A stretch of DNA of 64,000 nt, taken from the NCBI RefSeq assembly GCF_001691555.1, contig NZ_MAYN01000008.1:514617-578616 (forward strand), in the 5' to 3' direction. This document shows positions 22,373-34,994 of this stretch, in pieces (within the stretch, counting starts at the first letter, position 1; each line of letters opens with the position of its first letter). Position numbers and translations under genes: made by a program. Below the pieces are notes generated by a model. The model was not told the DNA's origin, did no database searches, and worked only from the letters and a program-made list of their open reading frames with translations. Source of the DNA: Pantoea eucrina (GTDB taxonomy: Bacteria; Pseudomonadota; Gammaproteobacteria; Enterobacterales; Enterobacteriaceae).

Positions 22373-23245
22373 ATGTCCGATTACCAGACTTTTACCATGC
22401 TAAAAAACCGCAAGGCTCAGCTGCGCGACAGCGTACCGCTCTCGGGCGGTATCCGGCTGGCAGCCTGGTTTAATAGCGGTGACCGCGTCACCAACCACAG
22501 CGATCATCATACCCTGAGCCTGTATACCGAAGAGGGTTATGATACCTGGCATAAAACGCCACACGGGTGGCGCAACGGCGGCGCGCCGGATCGTTTCTGC
22601 CTGATGCCGTCCGGTATGGAGTCAACCTGGGATTTACGGGCCGATCTTTCATTTGTGCATCTCTACTGCACCGATACACATTTACGTCAGCTTGGTGAAC
22701 AGATCTGGGATCGCTCGCCGGCCAGCCTGAATCTGCAGGAAAAGATTTTTGCTGATGACGATCGTATTACCCAGCTTTACCGCCATTTTTTACTCAGCGT
22801 CAGCTGGCAGCAGCCCGCCAATCAGCTGATGCTGAGCAGCGCATCGACGCTGCTGCTGACGCACCTGCTGCAGCGCTATAGTGATGTGGAGTGGCAGCTG
22901 CCCGCTGTGCGCGGTGGGCTGGCACCCGCCGTGCTGCGGCGTATTATTGCCCTGATTGATGCGCAGCTTGATCAGCCGCTGACGCTGGCGCGGCTCGCCG
23001 CAGAAGCTGCGCTCAGTGAATACCATTTTGCCCGTATGTTTCGCAGCAGCACCGGCAGCGCGCCGCACCAGTATGTTATGCAGCGCCGTATGGCAGTGGC
23101 GAAAGAGCTACTGATGCACAGCACGCTGCCGCTGACTGAGATTGCGCTGCGCTGCGGCTTTCATTCTGCCAGCCATTTCAGTAACCGGTTCCGTCAGCTG
23201 CATGGCGTGGCCCCGTCAGCGTGGCGGCAGGGCTATAGCCGGTAA
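22373..23245 (+). CDS. AraC-family transcriptional regulator
   Basis: 290 residues from ATG 22373, where similarity starts; longer in-frame starts extend over the divergent promoter. The N-terminal half (1-170) is an AraC-like sensor domain with a cupin-type pattern (WHKTPHGWRNG). The C-terminal 100 residues are the paired helix-turn-helix: first LARLAAEAALSEYHFARMF, second LTEIALRCGFHSASHFSNRF with the signature APSAWR end. Probably controls the divergent DMT exporter. Convergent with the LacI-type gene, 11 bp between stops. Confidence 0.88.
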   Translation: MSDYQTFTMLKNRKAQLRDSVPLSGGIRLAAWFNSGDRVTNHSDHHTLSLYTEEGYDTWHKTPHGWRNGGAPDRFCLMPSGMESTWDLRADLSFVHLYCTDTHLRQLGEQIWDRSPASLNLQEKIFADDDRITQLYRHFLLSVSWQQPANQLMLSSASTLLLTHLLQRYSDVEWQLPAVRGGLAPAVLRRIIALIDAQLDQPLTLARLAAEAALSEYHFARMFRSSTGSAPHQYVMQRRMAVAKELLMHSTLPLTEIALRCGFHSASHFSNRFRQLHGVAPSAWRQGYSR

Positions 23246-23256
23246 AAAACGCGTTA

Positions 23257-24285
23257 TCAGGGGATCACTTCACCCCGCACGATAACTTTGCCCGGCTTAC
23301 TGTCACTCTCATTGATGCGCCGGATAGCCAGATTCAGCGCCTGCCAGGCGATGCTCTGCAGATCGTGTGCGATGCAGGGAAAGTGAAAGCCATAAATATC
23401 CGCCTGCGTAACCTCGTCAATGCTGAAGAGTTTTACCTGCTGCTGCAGACTGAGTGAATGATCGATGCAGGCTTTAATAATGCCGAGTGAGATCTGATTG
23501 TTACAGCCCACAAAGTAGTCAGGGGCAGGGTGATGGTTCAGCCAGCGGCGGGTCTCCTGCCAGGCTGCATCCATAAAAAAGTCAGCATAGAGCACTTCCA
23601 GCGAGGCAGCTTTGCCCTGCAGCGCGGCCTGCAGACCGAGCACCCGCTCACGTGCAACGTTCGACTTTTCGGGACCGGAGACCACCACAATACGCTGTGC
23701 CCCCTGTTCCGCCAGCCAGCGACCGGTCTGCAGGCCACAGTCGAGGTTATCAATATAGACACCGCTGCAGTGAGAAACCTGCAGTTCACGATCGACCAGC
23801 ACCACCGGTATATTCAGCGTCTCCAGCCGCGTCATATAGGCCGGATGATAGTGAAGATCGTTGGAAATCACCGACAATATAATGGCATCAACGTTGTACC
23901 CGATTAGCCTGTCGATGATACGGTTCTCATTTTCCTGCGACTCACAGGAGTCAAACACCAGCGTATCGTAGCCCAGCTTATTTGCCTCCAGCGTCATTAG
24001 ACGCGTCAGGCCGCCAAAGAAGGGGTTAGCCATATCGGGATTAACGATGCCAATAGTTTTGCTGCTCTTTGCCCGCAGGCTGCGCGCCGCCGTATTCATC
24101 ACATAGCCTAACTGCTCTGCGGTAGCATGAATGCGCTGCAGCGTCTCCGGATGCACTTTTTCCGGCTGTGAAAAGGCGCGTGAGGCGGTAATTTTGCTCA
24201 CGTTTGCCTGGGCAGCAACGCTTGCCAGCGTTGCCTTGCGTCCCCGTCCTGCTGCCAAGTCTGGCTCCTTAATCAACCCTGTCAT
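23257..24285 (-). CDS. LacI-family repressor of the pentitol/pentose cluster
   Basis: 342 residues. The helix-turn-helix near residues 19-40 (TLASVAAQANVSKITASRAF) and hinge helix (NTAARSLRAKSSKTIGIV) are standard, followed by a periplasmic-binding-protein-like effector domain. It lies 55 bp downstream of the lyxose isomerase gene on the same strand, so the two are probably cotranscribed. The identical operator-like palindromes at 24898-24918 and 25056-25076 face both arms of the cluster and fit a LacI-type dimer. The inducer is probably a pentitol or pentose; not determinable. Confidence 0.9.
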   Translation of the reverse strand: MTGLIKEPDLAAGRGRKATLASVAAQANVSKITASRAFSQPEKVHPETLQRIHATAEQLGYVMNTAARSLRAKSSKTIGIVNPDMANPFFGGLTRLMTLEANKLGYDTLVFDSCESQENENRIIDRLIGYNVDAIILSVISNDLHYHPAYMTRLETLNIPVVLVDRELQVSHCSGVYIDNLDCGLQTGRWLAEQGAQRIVVVSGPEKSNVARERVLGLQAALQGKAASLEVLYADFFMDAAWQETRRWLNHHPAPDYFVGCNNQISLGIIKACIDHSLSLQQQVKLFSIDEVTQADIYGFHFPCIAHDLQSIAWQALNLAIRRINESDSKPGKVIVRGEVIP

Positions 24286-24340
24286 TTTGTATCATGAGTC
24301 AATCATGGCAGATCGTTTAGCGTTAAGCGATCTCGCTGCG

Positions 24341-24883
24341 TTATGCGAGTCGTCTGACGCGCGGGTCCGTGAAAATATCCAGGTCGTCGCGGCTTTCTGA
24401 TGAAAACTCCGAGACAACGGCCCCCTGGTCACCCGCCTGAAACCAGTGCCGCGTATCGGGTTTAATCGTGTACTGTTCGCCCGGACGCAACAGAATATAG
24501 CGGCTGCAGGTATAGGCGGTTTCGCTGCCGGCAGGCACCTGACAGCGCGGAGAGCCCGCCGCATCGTTTGGCGTGAGCTGCTCATCATCGACAAACAGAT
24601 AGACTTCGCCCCAGCGACAGCGAAAGGTCTCCTGCTTGCCTGGCGTACCGTTAAACGGCGGATGCCGATGCTCAGGGCAGGTCTGGCGGGGAAACAGCAC
24701 CAGTTCTTTAGCGCAATAGCGCGGTTCATTGATATAGGTTAACAGCTGCAAACCTGAAGCGGGGTAGTCGTCCAGGCCGAAAGTGGCAATTTCAATTTTC
24801 TCCTGCTCTGCAGGGGTAAGAACAATATTCGCCTGCTGCAGAAATGTCAGGGTGCGCTCAATCGCCTGCGGATAATCGGTCAT
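24341..24883 (-). CDS. D-lyxose ketol-isomerase (cupin type)
   Basis: 180 residues of the cupin-fold D-lyxose isomerase family, which interconverts D-lyxose and D-xylulose (and D-mannose/D-fructose in some members) with Mn2+. The metal-binding segment CPEHRHPPFNGTPGKQETFR supplies the His-His-Glu set, and RPGEQYTIKPDTRHWF the later His; FSSESRDDLDIF near the end is also conserved. The product xylulose is the substrate of the kinase encoded in the divergent operon, which supports the assignment. Start ATG 24881-24883 behind CAGGAGAAACC. Confidence 0.85.
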   Translation of the reverse strand: MTDYPQAIERTLTFLQQANIVLTPAEQEKIEIATFGLDDYPASGLQLLTYINEPRYCAKELVLFPRQTCPEHRHPPFNGTPGKQETFRCRWGEVYLFVDDEQLTPNDAAGSPRCQVPAGSETAYTCSRYILLRPGEQYTIKPDTRHWFQAGDQGAVVSEFSSESRDDLDIFTDPRVRRLA

Positions 24884-24897
24884 GCGGTTTCTCCTGT

Positions 24898-24918
24898 AAT
24901 GATATCGATACCATTAAA
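24898..24918. promoter_or_regulatory. LacI-type operator, copy 1
   Basis: A 21-bp box centred on TGATATCGATACCA, an imperfect palindrome with central CG as preferred by LacI/GalR proteins. It is 15 bases upstream of the lyxose isomerase start and identical in all 21 bases to the box at 25056-25076. Confidence 0.8.
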
Positions 24919-25055
24919 GCGTGTTCCGCTTATGATCTTCTGTGATCCCGATCCGCAATTCGTCGGGTCAGTGACGAGAGCATGGTTTCAGATCGGGATT
25001 ATTGAGTCTGCATCACAGTTTTAGCGTTTTTTTTACGTCACTATCGCCGCATTGA

Positions 25056-25076
25056 AATGATATCGATACCATTAAA
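25056..25076. promoter_or_regulatory. LacI-type operator, copy 2
   Basis: Second identical copy of the 21-bp box (core TGATATCGATACCA), 18 bases before the dehydrogenase start. The two copies are 158 bp apart in the same orientation, which would permit repression loops by a tetrameric or paired dimeric regulator. Confidence 0.8.
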
Positions 25077-25094
25077 ATGAATCCGGGGGCATTA

Positions 25095-26129
25095 ATGAAA
25101 GCGTTAGTTCTGAGTCAGGCAGGCCACATTGCGATTGAAGATCGGGAATTTGATGAGGTGCTGGGCGATGACGATGTCAAAATCAAAATTCACTCAGTAG
25201 GCATTTGCGGCAGCGATGTTCACTACTACAAACATGGCCGGATTGGTCCGTTTGTGGTGGAGGCACCCATGGTGCTGGGCCATGAAGCTGCCGGCATTGT
25301 GCTGGAGACCGGAAAAAACGTCACGCACCTGAAAGCAGGCGATCGCGTCTGTATGGAGCCCGGGATCCCGGATTTGAATTCCGATCAGTCGCGTGCGGGT
25401 CTCTACAATCTCGATCCCGCCGTACGCTTCTGGGCGACGCCGCCGGTGCACGGGTGCCTGCGTGAAACGGTCATTCATCCCGCGGCGTTCACATTTAAAC
25501 TGCCGGAAAATGTCAGCTTCCGCGAAGGAGCCATGGTTGAGCCGCTGGCGGTGGCAATGCAGGCCGCGACCAAAGCCGGGATCAAACCCGGCGATATTGG
25601 CCTGGTGCTGGGTGCCGGGCCCATCGGCGTGGTGACTGCGCTGGCAGCGCTGGCAGGTGGCTGTTCTGATGTGATCATCTGCGACATGTTTGATGAAAAG
25701 CTGGCCGTGGCGGCGGAGTATGAAGGGCTGCACGCCATCAATATCAAAACCGGCGATCTGGCCGGCAAAGTCTCTGAACTCACCAGCGGTAACGGTGCGG
25801 ATGTGGTGTTTGAATGCAGCGGGGCTAAACCTGCTATTGCCACGCTGGCAGAACACGCGGCGCCGGGTGCGACGGTGATTCTGGTGGGTATGCCGGTGGA
25901 CGCCGCACCGATGGACATTGTTGCGGCCCAGGCCAAAGAGCTGACCTTCAAAACCATTTTTCGCTACGCCAATATGTATCCCCGCACGCTGCGCCTGTTG
26001 AGCAGCGGCAAGCTGCGGGTAGAGCCGCTTATCAGCCACACCTATAAATTCGCCGACAGCGTTGAAGCGTTTGATCGCGCCGCCGCGGGTCATGCGGCAG
26101 ATATCAAAATCATGCTGGAGATGGAGTGA
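25095..26129 (+). CDS. Zinc-dependent polyol dehydrogenase (xylitol/sorbitol dehydrogenase type)
   Basis: 344 residues from ATG 25095, which has GGGGG just upstream; the ATG at 25077 abuts the operator and is less likely. Medium-chain dehydrogenase of the sorbitol dehydrogenase branch. Catalytic zinc ligands are Cys in [10 protein letters not shown], His-Glu in VLGHEAAG and Glu in VEPLAVAM. The four-Cys structural zinc loop is absent, as in animal SDH ([15 protein letters not shown]). The NAD fold is marked by [16 protein letters not shown]. With xylulokinase 3 bp downstream, the likely reaction is xylitol (or D-arabitol) to D-xylulose. The exact substrate is inferred from context. Confidence 0.87.
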
Positions 26130-26132
26130 CGC

Positions 26133-27650
26133 ATGGCGCTCTATGCAGGCATTGATTGCGGCACGCAGGGAACGCGTGTGGTCATTGTGAATAGCGAGCA
26201 GGGGGCGATTGTCGGCGAAGGCAGCGCGCCGCACCGGCTGCAGAGCGACGCAGATGGCACACGTGAACAGCATGCCAGCGAGTGGATTGACGCGCTGGTC
26301 ACGGCATTCCATCAGGCAGCATCAGACGCCGGTATCGATACACAGCAGATTACTGCGCTGAGTGTCTCTGGTCAGCAGCACGGCTTTGTAGCGCTGGATG
26401 AAGCCGGAGCAGTGCTGCATCCGGTAAAGCTGTGGTGCGACACCGCCACCGATGCGCAGAACAGCTGGCTGCTGCAGCAGCTGGGAGGGATCAGCGGTGC
26501 GCTGGCGCAGCCAGGGCTTGTTCCGGCGACCGGCTACACCGCGTCGAAAATTCTCTGGCTGAAGCAGCAGCATCCGGCGCTGTGGGCGCGTTTACACACC
26601 GTGTTACTGCCGCACGATTACCTTAATTTCTGGCTGACCGGCGAACGGGTGATGGAGTATGGCGACGCCTCCGGCACCGGCCTGCTGGATATCCGCCGCC
26701 GCCGCTGGGATCGGCACACGGTGGATCTTATCGATCCGGATGGCCGGCTGTGGCAGGCGCTGCCGCCGCTGGCTGCTGCGCACGACTGTATCGGCACCCT
26801 GCAGCCGGAAGCCGCGCAGCGTCTGGGATTACGCCATGCGGTGCGGGTGGCGACAGGCGGCGGCGATAATATGATGGCCGCCATCGGGTCCGGCAATATT
26901 GCGCCGGGCACGGTAACGCTAAGCCTCGGCACATCCGGCACGCTGTTCGCCTGCAGTGACACGCCTGTAATCGACGAGCACGGGCTGATTGCCAGCTTCT
27001 GCTCCAGCACTAACCGCTGGCTGCCGCTGATTTGCACCATGAATGTTACCTCTGCAACCACGCTGATCCAGACGCTGCTGGCAGAGGATATTGCCGGCTT
27101 TAATCAGCTGCTGAATCAGGCAGAGCCGGGAGCGGAGGGCATTGAGATGCTGCCGTTTTTTAATGGCGAGCGCACGCCGCCTCTGCCCCATGCGCAGGCG
27201 AGTCTGCATAACCTGAATGCCGTGAATTTTACCCGCGCGAACCTCTGCCGCGCCGCCGTGGAGAGTGCGACCTACGGATTACGTTACGGACTCGACCTGT
27301 TCCGGCAGCAGGGCATCAGCGCGCAGGAGATCCGCCTCACTGGCGGCGGCTCACGCAGCAGCGGCTGGCGGCAAATTGTTGCCGACGTCATGAATTGTCC
27401 GGTGGTCTCGCTGCGCATCCCTGAAACCGCCGCGCTGGGCGCAGCAATTCAGGCGATGTGGGCCAGCGCGCTGCTGGATAACCCTGCACAGCAGCCGGAT
27501 GCGTTACTGCAGTCGCTGTGTCAGCGCTTTGTCACGCCGGATGAAAGCACCCGCGCCGTGCCGGATCCCGCTCGCCATCAGGCCTATGAAACGCATTATC
27601 AGCGCTATCTGAACCGTCTCAGCAGTACTTATCCGGAGGTGGCATTGTGA
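26133..27650 (+). CDS. xylB: Xylulokinase
   Basis: 505-residue FGGY-family sugar kinase. Phosphate-binding IDCGTQGTRVVI at the start, substrate segment SVSGQQHGFVALDE and KLWCDTAT (Trp and Asp typical of xylulokinase), and the ATP-domain motifs GGGDNMMAAIGSG, SLGTSGTLF and TGGGSRSSGWRQI. Converts D-xylulose to xylulose 5-phosphate, feeding the pentose phosphate pathway. It follows the dehydrogenase by 3 bp and overlaps the ABC ATPase start by 4 bp, so it is in the middle of a tight operon. The symbol follows the enzyme name; this is a cluster-specific copy and a second xylB may exist elsewhere. Confidence 0.9.
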   Translation: MALYAGIDCGTQGTRVVIVNSEQGAIVGEGSAPHRLQSDADGTREQHASEWIDALVTAFHQAASDAGIDTQQITALSVSGQQHGFVALDEAGAVLHPVKLWCDTATDAQNSWLLQQLGGISGALAQPGLVPATGYTASKILWLKQQHPALWARLHTVLLPHDYLNFWLTGERVMEYGDASGTGLLDIRRRRWDRHTVDLIDPDGRLWQALPPLAAAHDCIGTLQPEAAQRLGLRHAVRVATGGGDNMMAAIGSGNIAPGTVTLSLGTSGTLFACSDTPVIDEHGLIASFCSSTNRWLPLICTMNVTSATTLIQTLLAEDIAGFNQLLNQAEPGAEGIEMLPFFNGERTPPLPHAQASLHNLNAVNFTRANLCRAAVESATYGLRYGLDLFRQQGISAQEIRLTGGGSRSSGWRQIVADVMNCPVVSLRIPETAALGAAIQAMWASALLDNPAQQPDALLQSLCQRFVTPDESTRAVPDPARHQAYETHYQRYLNRLSSTYPEVAL

Positions 27651-29140
27651 CACGAAATAACCAGGAGATGCTGCTGGAGGTTACGGGGATCCGCAAAGCG
27701 TTTGGCCCGGTTGTGGCGCTGAAAAACGCGGAGTTTGCGCTGCGCCCCGGGTCAATTCATGCGCTGTGCGGCGGCAACGGTGCCGGAAAATCGACCTTTC
27801 TCAGCATCCTGATGGGGTTTATCCAGCCCGATGCCGGAGAGATTTTTATCCGCGGCAGGCGCTGCAGCTTTGCCCATCCGCGCGACGCGCTGGCTGCCGG
27901 TATCGCGATTGTGCAGCAGGAGCTAAGCGCGATTCCGGACCTGACGGTGGCCGAGAATATCTGGCTGGGACGCGAACCGCGCCGGTTTGGTTTTGTTGAC
28001 TTTGCCACGCTCAATCAGCGCACCCGCGTGCTGCTGGAGGAGCTCGATTTTGACATCTCTGCTACCGAAAAAATGCGTAACCTCAGCGTTGCCGGGCAGC
28101 AGCTGGTGGAGATCGCCAAAGCGCTCTCTCACGCGAATGCTGACATCATCATCATGGATGAACCGACTTCAGCGATTGGCGAAGAGGATGCGCAAAAAAT
28201 CTTTCAGACTCTCGCCCGGCTGGCGCAAAAGGGCAAAGGCATTATTTATGTCTCCCACCGCCTCTCTGAGATTTTTCAGATTGCCGACAGCTATACCATC
28301 TTTCGCGATGGCGCCTGGGTGCAGGAGGGCATGCTGGCCGACATCACGCGTGAACAGCTGATTGAACAGATCATTGGCGGAGAATATGAGAGTGAGTTTG
28401 CCAAGTTCAATCAGCCGGGCGATGAGGTGATGATGGAGGTAAAAAACCTGCGCTGGCGTAACAAAATCAACGATATCAGCCTGCACCTGAAGCGGGGCGA
28501 AATCCTCGGCATCTACGGGCTGGTCGGCTCCGGGCGCAGCGAGTTTCTCGATTTGCTGTTTGGTATTGAACACGCAGACAGCGGCACCATCCGGCTGGGC
28601 GAGGTAGTACTGGGTCGCCATTCACCGAAAGAATCGATCCGGCACGGCATCGCTTATGTCACTGAAGATCGCAAAGCGACCGGCCTGGTGCTCTGTCGTT
28701 CGATTCGGGAAAACATCAACATCGCCTCATTTGGCGCCATCTCCCGCGCCGGCTTTATCAGTGAGAAGCAGGAGCAGGCGCGCAGCCTGGAGATGATCAA
28801 ACGCTTTAACGTCCGAACGCCGGATGCCGAACAGCTGGTGGGCAATCTCAGCGGCGGCAATCAGCAAAAAGTCGTGCTGGGGCGCTGGGCGTTACTCAAT
28901 CCGGAGGTACTGCTGCTGGATGAGCCTACCCGGGGTATTGATGTCGGTGCAAAGAAAGAGATTTACCGCTTTATGTCTGAGTTTGCATTGAAAAACAAGG
29001 GGATCGTAATGGTCTCCTCAGAGCTGTCGGAAATCATCGGCATGAGCGATCGCATTCTGGTGTTCCGCGACGGGCAGCTGGCGGGAGAATTAAGTGCGGC
29101 TCAGGCAACGCAGAGTGAACTGATGAAGCTGGCGGTTTAA
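27647..29140 (+). CDS. Sugar ABC transporter, dual ATPase (RbsA/XylG type)
   Basis: 497 residues with two ATPase domains, the layout of CUT2 sugar importers. First domain: Walker A GGNGAGKST, signature LSVAGQQ, Walker B IIIMDEPTS. Second domain: degenerate Walker A GLVGSGRSE, signature LSGGNQQKVVLGRW, Walker B LLLDEPTRGID, as in RbsA. GTG start at 27647-27649 overlapping the xylB stop; an ATG 20 bases on would trim the first residues only. Energises uptake through the next-encoded permease, with the periplasmic binding protein encoded after it. Confidence 0.9.
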   Translation: MTRNNQEMLLEVTGIRKAFGPVVALKNAEFALRPGSIHALCGGNGAGKSTFLSILMGFIQPDAGEIFIRGRRCSFAHPRDALAAGIAIVQQELSAIPDLTVAENIWLGREPRRFGFVDFATLNQRTRVLLEELDFDISATEKMRNLSVAGQQLVEIAKALSHANADIIIMDEPTSAIGEEDAQKIFQTLARLAQKGKGIIYVSHRLSEIFQIADSYTIFRDGAWVQEGMLADITREQLIEQIIGGEYESEFAKFNQPGDEVMMEVKNLRWRNKINDISLHLKRGEILGIYGLVGSGRSEFLDLLFGIEHADSGTIRLGEVVLGRHSPKESIRHGIAYVTEDRKATGLVLCRSIRENINIASFGAISRAGFISEKQEQARSLEMIKRFNVRTPDAEQLVGNLSGGNQQKVVLGRWALLNPEVLLLDEPTRGIDVGAKKEIYRFMSEFALKNKGIVMVSSELSEIIGMSDRILVFRDGQLAGELSAAQATQSELMKLAV

Positions 29141-29155
29141 CAGAGAGACAACGTT

Positions 29156-30193
29156 ATGAACACCACACATTCCATGCCTTCCGGCATCTCATTTTTTACA
29201 CGCAATAAAAGACGTATGCACAAATACGGCATCATCATCGCGTTTTTTGTGCTTTGCCTGATTGTGGCAGCCGTCGGCGAGCTGCAGGTCGCTAATGGCG
29301 CCTGGAGCAGCAACTATTTTCTCAGTAATGAAAATATGCTGATTGTGCTGCGCCAGGTCTCTATCAACGGCATTTTAGCGATCGGTATGACCTTTGTAAT
29401 TATCACCGCCGGCGTCGACCTGTCGGTGGGATCGGTGCTGGCGCTGAGCGGCATTGTTGCTGCGCGTTTTGCCACTAACAACAGCGGCATGGCAATCGGC
29501 GATACGGCGCATGCCGTGATGGTCCCGATGATTGTCGCGTTAGGCATTGGCATTGTCTGTGGCCTGATCAACGGTACCGTGCTGGCGCGTTACCGCCTGC
29601 AGCCGTTTATCGTCACTATGGGCATGCTCTCTGCTGCCCGCGGCCTCACGATGCTGACCACCGGCGGCAACCCGGTTTCACAGCTTAACAGTGATTTTCG
29701 CTGGCTCGGCAATGGCTACATGGCCGGCATACCCGTACCGGTCATTATCTTTGTTGTGCTGTTTGGCCTCGCCTGGCTGCTGCTCAATAAAACCTTACTC
29801 GGGCGCTACGTCTATGCCGTTGGCGGCAACCCGAAAAGTGCCCGTACGTCAGGCATCAGCGTCGTGGGCATAAAAGTCATGGTTTACACCCTGTGCGCCG
29901 CGCTGGCCGGGATCGCCGGGCTGATCCTCACCGCACGCACCGGATCGGCACAGACTAACGCGGGCGCAGGCTATGAACTCGATGCGATTGCTGCGGTAGT
30001 GATTGGCGGCACCAGTATGGCTGGCGGTGTCGGTACGCTTGTTGGCACCTTTTTTGGTGTGCTGATCATCGGCGTAATGAATAACGGCCTGGATTTGCTG
30101 GGGGTGCAGTCTTACTACCAGCAGATTATTAAAGGCGCCCTGATTGTAGTGGCTGTACTGCTCGACCCGTCGCGTAAACAACAGCGCGATTAA
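29156..30193 (+). CDS. Sugar ABC transporter permease (RbsC type)
   Basis: 345 residues, about ten hydrophobic helices, CUT2 permease family. Family motifs are visible: ILAIGMTFVIITAGVDLSVG (the ATPase-contact EAA-like loop region), MGMLSAARGL, VYAVGGNPKSARTSGI and AVVIGGTSMAGGVGTLVG. Forms the inner-membrane channel for the sugar. 15 bp after the ATPase gene with GAGAGACAAC ribosome site. Confidence 0.92.
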   Translation: MNTTHSMPSGISFFTRNKRRMHKYGIIIAFFVLCLIVAAVGELQVANGAWSSNYFLSNENMLIVLRQVSINGILAIGMTFVIITAGVDLSVGSVLALSGIVAARFATNNSGMAIGDTAHAVMVPMIVALGIGIVCGLINGTVLARYRLQPFIVTMGMLSAARGLTMLTTGGNPVSQLNSDFRWLGNGYMAGIPVPVIIFVVLFGLAWLLLNKTLLGRYVYAVGGNPKSARTSGISVVGIKVMVYTLCAALAGIAGLILTARTGSAQTNAGAGYELDAIAAVVIGGTSMAGGVGTLVGTFFGVLIIGVMNNGLDLLGVQSYYQQIIKGALIVVAVLLDPSRKQQRD

Positions 30194-30227
30194 CCTCTGA
30201 ATAGATAAACCCTGCCAGGAGAGAACA

Positions 30228-31235
30228 ATGAAAATAAGATCTATCGCTCTGTTAACTTCAGCCCTGACGCTGGGCGCGATTAGCATAGCGCAGGCTGCCC
30301 CCGTAAAAATCGCTGTGCTGATGTATGGCAATAAGGCGGAATTCGTTCAGCTGATGGAGCGCTACGGTAAAGCGCATCCGGCAGTAAAAAGCGGCGAAGC
30401 TGTACTCACCTTTTACGATGGTCGTTATGATGCGTCGGTGCAGAATGACCAGGCGGCGACCGCTATCCAGACGCGCGCAGACGCCATTATCGTGAACCCG
30501 ATGGACTATGAAGCCAACATCGATATTGTGACCAATGCTAACGAAGCCAAAATTCCGGTGGTGGTCACCAACGCCCGTCTGAACACGGAAGAGATGACGT
30601 CAGAAGTGGTCTCTAATGATGAGCTGGGCGGCTATCTGGAGGCCAAAGCGGTTCTGGATAAGCTGCAGTGCAAAACCAAAAAGGTCAATGTCGTCATCAT
30701 CGAAGGACCGAAGGGCGGCAGCGGTGAGATCCAGCGCGGCAAAGGCAATGACAAAGCGATAGCGGAGTGTGGTCCGGGACAGGTTACCGTACTGGAGAGA
30801 AAAACAGCCAACTGGTCACGCGCAGAGGCACAGCCGCTGATGGAGAACTGGCTGCAGAAGCATCGCGGTAAAATCAACGGTGTGATCGGCCAAAACGATG
30901 AGATGGCGCTGGGTGCTATTGAAGCGATTAAAGGCGCGGGTCTGAACGTTAACGATTTCGCGATTGCCGGTGTGGATGGCGTGTCTGATGCAATTCATGC
31001 CGTTCAGGCGGGTGAAATGGTCTCTATTCTGCAGGATGCGAAAGGCCAGATGCAGGGCGCCATTGATGTCGCGCTGCGCGCAGTAAAAGGCGCAGGCTAT
31101 CAGCCGCAGTCTGACATCTGGCAGCAGTATGCCAAAGATCTCGCCTGGGACGGCGGCACGAAAAAACACTACTACATTCCGTGGACCACGGTCACTGCGG
31201 ATAATGCGCAGCAGCTGCTGGATGCACGTAAGTAA
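30228..31235 (+). CDS. Periplasmic sugar-binding protein (RbsB type)
   Basis: 335 residues with a signal peptide (MKIRSIALLTSALTLGAISI then AQA cleavage near residue 23). Two-lobed type I periplasmic binding fold: lobe 1 VKIAVLMYGNKAEFVQLM, a hinge near INGVIGQNDEMALGAIEAIK, and AIAGVDGVSDAIHAVQAG typical of CUT2 proteins. Captures the sugar or polyol and delivers it to the permease. The ligand is not readable; pentitol or pentose is inferred from the neighbouring enzymes. Last gene of the operon, followed by a hairpin. Confidence 0.92.
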   Translation: MKIRSIALLTSALTLGAISIAQAAPVKIAVLMYGNKAEFVQLMERYGKAHPAVKSGEAVLTFYDGRYDASVQNDQAATAIQTRADAIIVNPMDYEANIDIVTNANEAKIPVVVTNARLNTEEMTSEVVSNDELGGYLEAKAVLDKLQCKTKKVNVVIIEGPKGGSGEIQRGKGNDKAIAECGPGQVTVLERKTANWSRAEAQPLMENWLQKHRGKINGVIGQNDEMALGAIEAIKGAGLNVNDFAIAGVDGVSDAIHAVQAGEMVSILQDAKGQMQGAIDVALRAVKGAGYQPQSDIWQQYAKDLAWDGGTKKHYYIPWTTVTADNAQQLLDARK

Positions 31236-31251
31236 TCAACGCCACGGTGAG

Positions 31252-31277
31252 CAGGCTGTCTGCCTTCAGACAGCCTG
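31252..31277. terminator. Strong hairpin between sugar operon and ymjA
   Basis: CAGGCTGTCTG-CCTT-CAGACAGCCTG, an 11-bp perfect stem between the convergent genes; a weak T-rich tract follows on the plus side. Likely bidirectional. Confidence 0.7.
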
Positions 31278-31287
31278 TTAACATCGT

Positions 31288-31533
31288 TTACTCGTTGCCC
31301 CATTCGTTCAGGAAGTTCGCCACATCATCAATGCGCGCGTCAGCAATTCCCGCCTCGCGCGCCATCTCATGCTGCGCTTCTTCACTGATCTCCTGATGGT
31401 TATTCAGGCGGGTGATCAGCAGCTGGAAGTAGTGCGCCAGCGGGTCGCGCTCGGCTTCACTCACCGGTTTTTCACACTCTTCAGCGTAAGTGTCAGCGAT
31501 ATCGTAATACTTCAGATCAATCTCATGTTTCAT
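31288..31533 (-). CDS. ymjA: DUF2543 protein YmjA
   Basis: 81 residues, the same length as E. coli YmjA and similar along its whole length (for example [32 protein letters not shown], and the NEWGNE end). An acidic, all-helical cytosolic protein of unknown function. It is not in this neighbourhood in E. coli, so its position here is a rearrangement relative to that genome. Confidence 0.88.
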
Positions 31534-31824
31534 GGTGCGCTCCGGAAACGGGGGAGGGTTCAGATGCCAGCGGCATCATTTAGCGTAAATCATACCACTC
31601 CTGCCCGCATTTTCCCGCCTGCCGGAAAAGGCCGCGGAATGCCCGGTAAATCAGAGGCGTTATTACCCTCAGAATAAATATATTTCTGACCCGCCATTAT
31701 CAGAATAACAGCAGCGTAATAAACCGGCACAGGGTAAAACGGCATAACATCGTATTCTAAACTTTTAATAGCGGTGTTATCGTTGTGTTGCGCTGATGTA
31801 CTTTATATACATGGATACTGTTTT

Positions 31825-33684
31825 ATGGCGAAATTAATGACCTCCCTGACGCTGTGTTCAGGGCGAATGACGCACGGAGAGCGACGCGTCGCCCAGCGGC
31901 TTGAATCGCATCTCGGCGACGATTGCCTTATCTGGTATGACATTCCGGTTGGACGCCAGTACCGGCATCCTGACTTTGTTATTATCGATCCCGACAACGG
32001 ACTGATTTTCCTTGAGGTCAAAGACTGGAAGCTAAATACATTGCAGCATGCGGATCCGCAGCGGGTGACGCTGAGAAACGCCCAGGGCGAAACGCAGGCG
32101 CAAAATCCGCTGCTGCAGGTCAGAGAGTATGCCTGTGCAACCGTCGAACAGTTATCTCAGGATCCGAAACTGCAGCAGAAAACAGGCCTGTATAAAGGAA
32201 AGCTGAATATGGCCTGGGCCTATGGTGTGGTGTTTACCAATATTACCCGCCAGCAACTGACATCACTTTCAGCCGATGGCGTGGTTGAATCTATATTTCC
32301 GCAGGCGCTGACGATTTGTCAGGATGAAATGACAGAGTCTGTCTCTGTTTCTGCGTTTCGCGCTAAAATTTCCGGACTGTTTACTACCCGTTTCAGACCC
32401 GCAATAACACCCGCTATGCGGGATATACTGCGCCGGCATCTTTTTCCGGAGATCGCTATTACGGTAAAAAATAAGCGCAGTAATATTTACCGGGTAATGG
32501 ATCTGCAGCAGGAGGTGCTGGCGCGTAATCTTGGCGAAGGGCATCGTGTCATACATGGCGTGGCCGGTTCCGGTAAAACGCTGATCTTACTCTACCGCTG
32601 TTTATATCTTTCCGAGACCACCACGCGCCCTGTACTGGTACTCTGTTTTAATATCATTCTGGCTAACTATATCCGTGAGTGCATCGCGGCCAGAGGGCTA
32701 TCGGATAAAGTACACGTCTATCATTTTCATGACTGGTGCGCGACGGCCGCCCGGACCTTTAAGCTGAATATGAGCGGGGAAGGGCGCTATTATGATAACT
32801 GCTTCGCGGCGCTGGAAAATGCGGTTAACAGCGGCACCGTCGGGGATGCGGGGTACGATGCGGTGCTGGTGGACGAAGGGCATGATTTCGACCGGCGCTG
32901 GCTTTCACTGATTGCCCGGCTGTTTGATAACACCCGCCGCTCGCTGCTGCTGATGTACGATGATGCCCAGTCTCTGTACCGGCGTGAAAAAGCGCTGAAC
33001 TTCTCGCTGGCAAGCGTGGGCATCCAGGCGCAGGGGCGTACCTCTATCCTTCGGGTAAACTATCGCAATCCGCGGCGCATCCTCAATTTTGCCTATGCTT
33101 TTTCACGCGACTACTTTGACCGGCATCATAATCAGGAGCTTCCGCTGGTACTGCCGGAAGCCTGCGGCGAAGAAAACAGCGACATTCCCGATATCGAACA
33201 GTGTCAGTCTGCAACAGATGAAGCGCGTCGCGTTGTGGCATGGCTGAGAGAAAAATATGCGTCTGCAGGCCGCTGGGGCGACATGGCGGTACTGTGTCCC
33301 ACGCATTTTTCAGCAGACAGACTCATCGATCTGCTGAAGCAGCATGCGATCCCTGCCGCCGTGAGCTTTACGACAGAAGACAAAAAACGCTATTCGCATC
33401 GGGAGGATGTGGTACATCTTCTGACCTTTCAGAGCAGCAAAGGGCTGGAGTTCCCTTACGTTGCCGTGATCAATGCTTCATTTGTTCATAAAGGGGCTGA
33501 AGATGAGTCTGAGGCTATTCCGGCGCTGTATGTGGCCTTTACACGTGCCACCCAGGCGCTACTGGTCACCTGCTACAAAGAAAACAGCATCAGTCAGCAG
33601 CTGTCGAAATTTGCCGGTATGGATTTGCAGGATGAGGGGGATATGGCGTCCCCTGCAGGAATCGAACCTGCAACTAGCCCTTAG
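31825..33684 (+). CDS. NERD-nuclease/UvrD-type SF1 helicase fusion, ending inside argW
   Basis: 619 residues from ATG 31825; the longer frame from 31774 lacks a convincing start. Residues 10-125 are a NERD nuclease-related domain with the PD-(D/E)xK-like set in HPDFVIIDPDNGLIFLEVKD. A UvrD-type helicase core follows from about 235: Walker A GVAGSGKT, Walker B VLVDEGHD, motif near TFQSSKGLEFPYVAV and motif VI LYVAFTRAT. Such fusions occur among defence or mobile-element genes and may cleave or unwind foreign or damaged DNA; that role is inference. The last dozen residues (PAGIEPATSP) are merely antisense to tRNA-Arg, so the natural C-terminus is uncertain. Upstream DNA is AT-rich. Confidence 0.85.
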   Translation: MAKLMTSLTLCSGRMTHGERRVAQRLESHLGDDCLIWYDIPVGRQYRHPDFVIIDPDNGLIFLEVKDWKLNTLQHADPQRVTLRNAQGETQAQNPLLQVREYACATVEQLSQDPKLQQKTGLYKGKLNMAWAYGVVFTNITRQQLTSLSADGVVESIFPQALTICQDEMTESVSVSAFRAKISGLFTTRFRPAITPAMRDILRRHLFPEIAITVKNKRSNIYRVMDLQQEVLARNLGEGHRVIHGVAGSGKTLILLYRCLYLSETTTRPVLVLCFNIILANYIRECIAARGLSDKVHVYHFHDWCATAARTFKLNMSGEGRYYDNCFAALENAVNSGTVGDAGYDAVLVDEGHDFDRRWLSLIARLFDNTRRSLLLMYDDAQSLYRREKALNFSLASVGIQAQGRTSILRVNYRNPRRILNFAYAFSRDYFDRHHNQELPLVLPEACGEENSDIPDIEQCQSATDEARRVVAWLREKYASAGRWGDMAVLCPTHFSADRLIDLLKQHAIPAAVSFTTEDKKRYSHREDVVHLLTFQSSKGLEFPYVAVINASFVHKGAEDESEAIPALYVAFTRATQALLVTCYKENSISQQLSKFAGMDLQDEGDMASPAGIEPATSP

Positions 33685-33718
33685 GAGGGGCTCGTTATAT
33701 CCATTTAACTAAGGAGAC
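33644..33718 (-). tRNA. argW: tRNA-Arg(CCT)
   Basis: 75-nt cloverleaf with encoded GCCA end. Acceptor GTCTCCT/AGGGGAC, D-arm GTTA/TAAC, anticodon arm AGCCC-CTCCTAA-GGGCT (anticodon CCT at 33683-33685), T-arm GCAGG-TTCGATT-CCTGC. It corresponds to argW, which is next to yfdC in E. coli too. Its 3' 41 bases overlap the end of the helicase gene on the other strand. argW is a well-known integration site for prophages and islands in enterics. Confidence 0.96.
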
Positions 33719-33812: not shown

Positions 33813-34751
33813 TTACTCCGTCTGCTCTCCGGCAGCGTTCTTCTCTTCTGCTTTCTCGCGGCGTTTTTGATCCGCCCGCGCCTTCGCTTTCGCCTCTTCG
33901 CTCATGTCGTTGCGGATCTGCGCATGGCTGATCAGGGCAAAAATCAGCGTGCCGCCGGTGATGTTACCGAGCAGCGTGGGCAGCGCAAATGGCCAGAAAA
34001 ACTCCTGCCACGGCACCGTGCCCGCAAAGACCAGATAGAGCACCTCGACTGATCCGACCACGATATGCGCCAGATCGCCCAGCGCCACCAGCCACGTCAT
34101 CATAATGATGATCAGCAGTTTGGCATTTTCCGCATGCGGGATCATCCAGACCATGGTGGCGATGATCCAGCCGGAGATCACGGCATTCGCGAACATCTCG
34201 CCCGGCGTGTTTTCCATCACCTTTTCACTGATGGCCGTGAACGCCTGGCGCGTCGCCTCATCAAAAATGGGCATGTAGTTAAAGGCCAGCGCCGCCAGCC
34301 CGGTACCAATCAGATTGCCCAGCAGCACCAGCCCCCACAGGCGCAGCAGCAGCATAAAATTGCTGCCGGTGGGCTTGTGCATAACCGGCAGCACCGCTGT
34401 CACGGTGTTCTCGGTAAACAGCTGCTGCCGCGCGAGGATCACAATCACAAAGCCAAAGGTGTAGCCGAGGTTCTCCAGCAGAAAGGCGCCGGGGACCCCT
34501 TCAAGGTGAACCTGAAAAATCCCTTTCGCCATCAGCGACGCGCCCATTGAGAGGCCTGCGGCGATGGCTGACCACAGCAGCGCCATGCCGTCACGCTCTA
34601 ACTCTTTCTCTCCATCCTGCCGTATCTCTTCATGAATCGCCGCTGCCCGCGAGGGCAGGGCCTCTTCATCAACTTCAATCTCAGTGCCTTGCTCTTTTTC
34701 TTCGCTGTCTACGTCATTGTCGTGTTCAGCATGTGATGGCGATGGCTTCAT
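33813..34751 (-). CDS. yfdC: Formate/nitrite-transporter-family inner membrane protein YfdC
   Basis: 312 residues from ATG 34749-34751 with an AGGAG site. Highly similar to E. coli YfdC (310): acidic N-terminal tail (SEEKEQGTEIEVDEEALPSRA), a FocA/NirC-like six-helix core (about 65-285) with LMAKGIFQVHLEGVPGAFLL and GWIIATMVWM, and a charged C-terminal tail (KARADQKRREKAEE). FNT proteins form pentameric channels for small monovalent anions, but the transported species of YfdC is not known. Neighbour of argW as in E. coli. Confidence 0.93.
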   Translation of the reverse strand: MKPSPSHAEHDNDVDSEEKEQGTEIEVDEEALPSRAAAIHEEIRQDGEKELERDGMALLWSAIAAGLSMGASLMAKGIFQVHLEGVPGAFLLENLGYTFGFVIVILARQQLFTENTVTAVLPVMHKPTGSNFMLLLRLWGLVLLGNLIGTGLAALAFNYMPIFDEATRQAFTAISEKVMENTPGEMFANAVISGWIIATMVWMIPHAENAKLLIIIMMTWLVALGDLAHIVVGSVEVLYLVFAGTVPWQEFFWPFALPTLLGNITGGTLIFALISHAQIRNDMSEEAKAKARADQKRREKAEEKNAAGEQTE

Positions 34752-34994
34752 GTTTGCTCCTGGTGATAGTGCCAATGCGTAATAAGCGTAGACGGTTTTA
34801 GCAAGCCTGAAATGTTACGAAGAGTTTCTTTAAGCGTAACAAAATTTTAACCGCGCCGCTTTTTTACACAGTTTTCGGATTTAAAGACCGTAAACAGGTG
34901 CGTGGAGCGAAATGAGAGCACAGTCACACTCTTCGGCGGACTGCAACAGTGTGATATTATCGCCGCCTCATTTTTTGCGGTGATGCGCCCCTCT

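Follow-up and report, generated by a model that had tools for sequence, protein, structure and literature searches.

A NERD nuclease-UvrD helicase gene that ends inside argW in Pantoea eucrina: a candidate defence gene and probable survivor of a lost T6SS/SNIPE locus

How does an intact gene for a nuclease-helicase come to end inside a tRNA gene, and what may its product do? The question is raised by a 64,000-nucleotide stretch of the Pantoea eucrina genome (referred to here as the window), in which such a gene runs into the gene for tRNA-Arg(CCT). The reading that we favor, with a probability of about 0.65, is that the gene encodes a stand-alone anti-phage or anti-plasmid NERD-UvrD enzyme, that it is what remains of a lost T6SS/SNIPE locus, and that a deletion of tssA fused it to argW. 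On this reading an odd, tRNA-overlapping gene would have a readable history, that of a candidate defence gene that has outlasted a T6SS cluster and a proven phage-entry nuclease.

The gene and its tRNA-coded end

The open reading frame (31825..33684, forward strand) is intact. It runs from the ATG at 31825 to the TAG at 33682-33684, and its 619 codons give a protein of 619 residues with the C-terminal sequence ...DMASPAGIEPATSP. The single tRNA gene that ARAGORN finds in the window is tRNA-Arg(CCT), at 33644-33718 on the reverse strand. The two predictions agree with the sequence-only reading that preceded this analysis, which had described a 619-residue gene ending antisense to this tRNA. As the tRNA spans 33644-33718 on the reverse strand, its complement accounts for codons 608-619 and for two of the bases of codon 607. 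The tRNA-coded tail (33643..33684, forward strand) therefore consists of codon 607 (two of its three bases), 12 codons for the residues ASPAGIEPATSP, and a stop codon that is located inside the tRNA gene.

The tRNA gene is named argW here by synteny, because yfdC (33813..34775, reverse strand; Pfam Form_Nir_trans), the conserved neighbor on its 5' side, adjoins it as in E. coli K-12 MG1655. In the segment of the MG1655 chromosome that was opened (2463000-2470000), the prophage CPS-53 (intS) is located on the 3' side of argW. The DNA directly upstream of the nuclease-helicase gene (31640-31824) is AT-rich, as the earlier reading had pointed out, with a GC content of 38.9% compared to 57.8% for the window. 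No promoter-like site was found before the gene, with 0.8 expected.

Domain organization and conserved residues

The NERD domain covers residues 17-113 (31873..32163, forward strand; Pfam, 46.6 bits). The SF1 helicase part covers residues 223-599 (32491..33621, forward strand), with a structural fit to UvrD and with its motif residues kept. The UvrD_C (53 bits) and UvrD-helicase (36.4 bits) models are also matched, all three above the Pfam cut-offs. Moreover, the PADLOC candidate family C3a187 ('NERD+UvrD') is matched at 459.7 bits (E 3.9e-138), with residues 1-596 on positions 1-556 of the 559 in the profile. The identity first proposed from the sequence, a NERD nuclease and UvrD-type helicase, is borne out by these domains and by the full length of the C3a187 match, and the search for NERD-helicase defence families suggested at that time finds its answer in the same profile.

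The NERD and UvrD models and C3a187 are each matched by all 32 aligned homologs, and the Pfam Schlafen helicase model is also matched by three of the 32. Residues D50, E64 and K66, which we take from general knowledge of the fold to be the PD-(D/E)xK triad, are identical in all 32. The same is true of the SF1 motif residues G248-T252, D350, E351, Q382, R414, G540, E542 and R574, which include the Walker A and Walker B motifs.

Predicted structure

An AlphaFold2 model was built from 32 sequences, with a mean pLDDT of 79.2. The helicase half of the model (residues 223-602) is similar to UvrD (2is6_B), with a Z score of 34.1 and an rms distance of 2.9 over 358 residues. The NERD domain, modeled alone (pLDDT 85.6), aligns with the nuclease Cdn1 with a Z score of 8.8, with the linker of human SLFN14 (residues 401-554) with a Z score of 8.6 (rms distance of 3.4, 139 residues aligned), and with chains of Can2, McrBC, NucC and Shedu with Z scores of 5 to 8; values under about 8 are common. 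A Foldseek search with the NERD domain alone gives no match at E<=0.001, and a sequence search with it against solved structures has 0.37 as its lowest E value.

With the whole model, the top Foldseek match is human SLFN11 (7zel_A, E 3.5e-15), with residues 12-585 of the model aligned on residues 414-899. The similarity to the human Schlafens SLFN11 and SLFN14 covers their linker and SF1 helicase half. On the other hand, the sequence identity is 7-14%, the rms distance over the whole chain is about 20, and the window protein does not have the N-terminal Schlafen core. As a lead only, the model raises the prospect that bacterial NERD-helicases may share ancestry with the linker-helicase part of mammalian Schlafens, which are antiviral proteins.

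Comparison with known systems

The NERD-UvrD family is already in PADLOC as a candidate defence family. The window protein has the same architecture as C3a187 and matches its profile over the full length; it differs in that its gene stands alone beside argW and carries a 12-residue tRNA-coded tail, and C3a187 is itself a candidate family. The candidate defence gene of the earlier reading is thus a full-length member of a family that has candidate status still.

Like Nhi and Nhi-like systems, the protein is a single-chain nuclease-helicase. In the table of a review (PMC10952713), NERD (PF08378) is entered for Nhi-like systems and for Mokosh type I, and the comparison with Nhi-like systems made here is by NERD content in that table only. 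For Nhi-like systems, phage methylases are the reported activators (PMC12409349). The PADLOC Nhi model, however, is matched at 21 bits and not over the full length, the best stretch being residues 227-274 on positions 190-234 of 470.

The UvrD-like motor is shared with the Gabija GajB/UvrD, PcrA and Rep helicases, although with 13-24% identity in structure alignments, and the GajB models match the window protein only in part, with at most 50.4 bits. In contrast to Gabija, nuclease and motor are parts of one polypeptide, and no GajA (OLD-type ATPase/TOPRIM) adjoins the gene, whose neighbors are ymjA and yfdC.

An accessory gene with patchy distribution

Full-length orthologs (67-100% identity) are present in 5 of 61 genus genomes and adjoin argW in two of these, the genome of the window and G016, whose contig is a Pantoea eucrina LMG 5346 sequence. 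Although 58 of the 61 genomes match at E<=0.001, 52 of these do so by weak helicase matches only (18-40 bits) and are excluded from the five, as is G024, with a partial 42% match at a contig end. At E<=1e-60, the gene is found in 6 of 295 genomes sampled from the family and 3 of 394 sampled from the order, the own genome being counted each time. The accessory status proposed earlier therefore stands, and the gene is not core in all related genera.

Relatives are common in E. coli, where 1036 of 5426 complete genomes match, 589 of them over at least 80% of the query; most of the full-length E. coli entries among the matches listed are named just '3'-5' exonuclease'. Among plasmid records 75 match, and in 26 of these at least 80% of the query is covered; three phage records match as well, none of them to that extent.

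A slot between tssE and tssA in Enterobacterales

The Enterobacterales branch comprises 18 of the 44 rows of the tree. In most of the close Enterobacterales relatives the gene is located in a T6SS cluster, in the order tssE - SNIPE - NERD-UvrD - tssA. Directly downstream there is tssA, whole or in pieces, in 11 of the 18 rows, and a GIY-YIG gene (SNIPE) or part of one is upstream in 10. In several slot loci the end of the nuclease-helicase gene overlaps or touches the start of tssA. The branch of the window is nested within the rows with the T6SS slot (SH-aLRT 99). The slot is common rather than universal, since seven of the 18 rows have no adjacent T6SS gene (the window, G016, G026, two E. 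coli plasmids, Salmonella diarizonae and Citrobacter braakii). In G026 (L064 5870-7048), a Tle1-like T6SS phospholipase-type gene is directly upstream of the nuclease-helicase, with no other matched T6SS genes.

Two copies of the GIY-YIG protein were scanned, and both match PADLOC PD-Lambda-1, with 292-295 bits. PD-Lambda-1 has been renamed SNIPE and is reported to cut phage DNA during injection (PMC13190303). SNIPE is tied to the window gene by its position, as the neighbor of NERD-UvrD in the T6SS slot and as a relic upstream of the gene (see below), but it is a separate, membrane-bound protein with DUF4041 and GIY-YIG domains (PMC13190303). Literature titles and abstract openings on NERD-UvrD, on T6SS with defence and on T6SS with GIY-YIG contain no description of this slot, and T6SS and NERD are absent from the main text of the papers on PD-Lambda-1/SNIPE.

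Pieces of the arrangement are found elsewhere in Pantoea. The argW locus of G032 has the order argW - tssA - SNIPE - tssE followed by more T6SS genes, some in two pieces. At argW, G002 has tssA and a SNIPE remnant and G057 has a broken SNIPE; on a second contig of G057 the nuclease-helicase gene is located between tssE and tssA. In G017, SNIPE, the nuclease-helicase and a broken tssA are beside selC. None of the Pantoea genomes examined has the nuclease-helicase gene inside a T6SS at argW itself, which counts against the survivor reading.

The slot also suggests that the gene could be a T6SS accessory, for example a guard against DNA-damaging effectors or a handler of the DNA of killed neighbors, with no anti-phage role. 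Its place within T6SS clusters, with its end touching the start of tssA, and the Tle1-like gene in G026 are in keeping with this. We consider it very unlikely, as the gene is intact where the T6SS is gone or broken (the window, G016, Enterobacter sp. kpr-6 and all 10 E. coli loci with a full-length gene, described below), its partner SNIPE is reported to be anti-phage (PMC13190303), and only one of 71 non-enterobacterial loci has a T6SS-query match, a weak one to VgrG.

No partner gene is conserved across 80 loci, and no neighbor family beyond the family itself occurs in more than five of them. For the 71 non-enterobacterial relatives, at 1e-30, 129 adjacent ORFs match 81 PADLOC families and 94 distal ORFs match 29; this contrast is just a hint, because families rather than genes were counted, the models overlap and the ORFs are mechanical.

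Loci in E. coli and on plasmids

The E. coli loci opened were taken from the best-scoring and spread lists and are not a random sample. Ten of the 11 chromosomal loci have a full-length gene, and the gene in the other is cut by IS66. Broken or truncated pieces of tssA are downstream in all 10 loci with a full-length gene; upstream there is SNIPE in five (one frameshifted) and tssE or its remnant in six. The nuclease-helicase has thus repeatedly outlasted the decay of a T6SS. A scan of the neighbors at three of these loci gave QatA, QatB, QatC, Old and weak KwaA matches. In EPEC E2348/69 (L226 5908-8074), the nuclease-helicase is interrupted by an IS66 element, and many E. coli records, O157:H7 among them, have 37% of the query matched, with the same pattern. 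With so many shortened or interrupted copies the gene appears dispensable there, a point against the favored reading. Four plasmid loci were opened. The one from Citrobacter has the order tssE - small gene - GIY-YIG - nuclease-helicase - small gene - VasL-type tssA, with the nuclease-helicase matched in three pieces and unannotated.

An accessory DNA-repair helicase-nuclease with no immune role is the least probable of the readings weighed here. The UvrD/PcrA-like motor would suit it, and so would the purifying selection described below. It is opposed by the patchy presence of the gene and its carriage on plasmids (the 75 records), by the SNIPE, Qat and OLD-like genes in its company, and by the interrupted copies in E. 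coli.

The argW site and the extra DNA

argW is matched in 60 of the 61 genus genomes, and 42 loci were opened, those of the window and G016 included. yfdC adjoins argW in 34 of the 42. The 3' side is variable, with an integrase-type ORF within 500 bases in six of the 42 loci (one member was Pfam-tested) and Pantoea T6SS genes near argW in eight (the stretch read being up to 14 kb). SNIPE or its remnants are present in three of these eight, and tssA is the T6SS gene closest to argW in seven. These loci support the earlier description of argW as a variable site.

In the window, about 10.4 kb of extra DNA (23235..33643) is located between argW and the core AraC/EamA genes. It was recognized as extra because, in 15 of 16 relatives (chosen for the core AraC gene near argW), homology to the window ends at 23,208-23,234 and resumes at argW. 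The genes identified in this DNA are those for a LacI regulator, a lyxose-isomerase-like protein, a dehydrogenase, a sugar kinase, a sugar ABC transporter, ymjA and the nuclease-helicase. The first five form a pentose-type catabolic set (23257-31235); six of the 61 genus genomes have its binding protein, which in four is encoded away from this argW locus, as judged from contig positions. As 44 of the 61 genus genomes have ymjA (DUF2543; 31288-31533), its place next to the nuclease-helicase gene is probably the result of a move or of retention by chance.

It has to be asked whether an integrase element at argW brought the gene as site-specific island cargo, with the insertion replacing the C-terminus and the rest of the element later lost. 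Such elements do use argW in the genus, as the six integrase-type ORFs indicate. A small argW-integrated element is present in G034 (L083 7582-7605, 14119-14188) between the tRNA and the T6SS, where 24 bases of the argW 3' end recur about 6.5 kb from argW, with T6SS genes beyond. The 10.4 kb of extra DNA itself would also fit. So would the base before CCA in argW. Most of the 42 loci have an A at this position; the window and G016, with some others, have a G. This discriminator G may be the mark of past recombination at the tRNA end, but it occurs at other loci as well.

Nevertheless, we regard cargo of this kind as unlikely. The window differs from an argW-integrated genomic island in two respects: the argW 3' end is not repeated at the far boundary, and none of the genes identified within the 10.4 kb encodes an integrase. 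A search of the window for exact repeats of at least 11 bases, and for 23- and 16-base patterns with up to three mismatches, recovers argW itself only, so that the att repeat anticipated near 31.5 kb is found neither there nor elsewhere in the window. Moreover, a SNIPE relic, a spacer match and an intermediate arrangement in kpr-6 explain the position of the gene without it. Loss of the argW terminator was also considered and set aside: in a rough hairpin-plus-T scan, the window and G016 are not distinct from 13 other loci.

A SNIPE relic and an intermediate arrangement

The favored reading, survival of the gene from a lost T6SS/SNIPE locus, is supported by the DNA upstream of it. The segment at 31646..31747 (forward strand) resembles a decayed 3' end of a SNIPE gene (PD-Lambda-1 type GIY-YIG) with an internal stop, in an alignment with the SNIPE gene of L114 that is colinear with the adjacent spacer. 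It is identical to the last 102 bases of that gene, one target being tried, at 56 positions without gaps, the highest count among 127,796 placements in the window and equalled at no second one (mean 25.7, sd 4.8). For local alignments outside the spacer, the observed score is not reached by any of 1000 shuffles with L114 or G017 as target; it is reached by 3 with Cedecea, by 21 with kpr-6 and by 209 with Serratia. The alignment to the Serratia target is thus no better than chance, which counts against the reading, as does G016, where none of the five targets recovered the relic.

The spacer that follows (31742..31817, forward strand) is homologous to the spacer between SNIPE and NERD-UvrD in T6SS-slot loci. 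Over its 76 bases it is 72-75% identical to that of four of the six slot loci compared (L112, L114, L116 and L062).

In Enterobacter sp. kpr-6 (L112), the order is SNIPE - NERD-UvrD - frameshifted tssA piece - argW - yfdC. Besides the tssA piece, there is no T6SS-query match in the 21.8 kb read at this locus.

With respect to the tssE-tssA slot, the window therefore has a SNIPE remnant upstream (31646-31747), for which the shuffle support is mixed, but no T6SS remnant was found in it, and in particular no tssA, whole or in pieces, such as 11 of the 18 branch rows have after the gene. A protein search of 23.2-33.7 kb gave no convincing T6SS or SNIPE remains; the lowest non-self E value is 0.001 (an OLD-type ATPase query) and the next 0.007 (a second TssA-type query). 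TssF, searched in 12 genomes, is matched in 10, the exceptions being the genome of the window and G024.

Given the slot in the relatives, the T6SS genes at argW, the gene order in kpr-6 and the SNIPE relic, the gene has most likely outlived a T6SS/SNIPE locus to which it once belonged. The relic indicates, from its sequence, that SNIPE has been lost in the lineage of the window; we infer the T6SS ancestry and its loss at this copy of argW. The earlier suggestion of island cargo or a relic is accordingly upheld in its second half, by the SNIPE remnant and the spacer, and lacks support in its first, cargo of an argW integrase island, for want of an att repeat and an integrase.

Origin of the C-terminus, and selection

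Natural C-termini of the family extend about eight residues beyond the helicase fold, that of kpr-6 ending in ...KFAGVDLQERQDGYA. The window and G016 proteins follow the natural C-terminus as far as DLQDEG and then enter the tRNA. Only the last few codons and the stop would therefore have been replaced, and not a domain. The fusion junction can be located to about 15 bases at best. Residues 603-619 have pLDDT values below 50 in the AlphaFold2 model. The proposal that the original C-terminus was lost or replaced during an insertion holds for the replacement, of only about eight natural residues, and the tail probably arose from a deletion running to argW rather than from an insertion.

The fusion is probably older than the split of the window and G016 lineages, as the tail is common to both species. 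The dN/dS ratio between the two genes is 0.055, and those for five neighboring genes are 0.005-0.111. This ratio suggests purifying selection since the fusion, and with it a nuclease-helicase that still works.

A possible mode of action

From the domains, the conserved residues and the company of the gene we infer a candidate defence function. The protein would be a single chain in which a NERD-type PD-(D/E)xK nuclease is joined to a UvrD-like SF1 motor. By analogy with UvrD-type motors and with defence proteins that combine a nuclease and a helicase, the motor could load where invading DNA has a free end, a gap or a fork, and then move and unwind with ATP while the nuclease degrades a strand. 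In the lineage of the window, T6SS and SNIPE would have been lost, and a tssA deletion up to argW would have placed the end of the reading frame within the tRNA gene. The tail so acquired would lie beyond the folded protein, and the gene would have been kept by selection since.

A broader and more tentative possibility, to which we give less than an even chance, is that NERD-UvrD and SNIPE are a built-in anti-phage cassette of enterobacterial T6SS clusters, that the two nucleases act in sequence, and that the cassette outlives the T6SS, reduced in one lineage to a lone gene that takes its C-terminus from a tRNA gene. Speculatively, SNIPE would make DNA ends that the nuclease-helicase uses in turn. 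In several slots (L106 5913-6314, L112 8198-8602, L228 2917-3318), SNIPE is preceded by a small gene, of roughly 134 codons, that is named 'YdcA family' or hypothetical. The kpr-6 copy of this gene has no Pfam match, and the cassette may include it as a third component.
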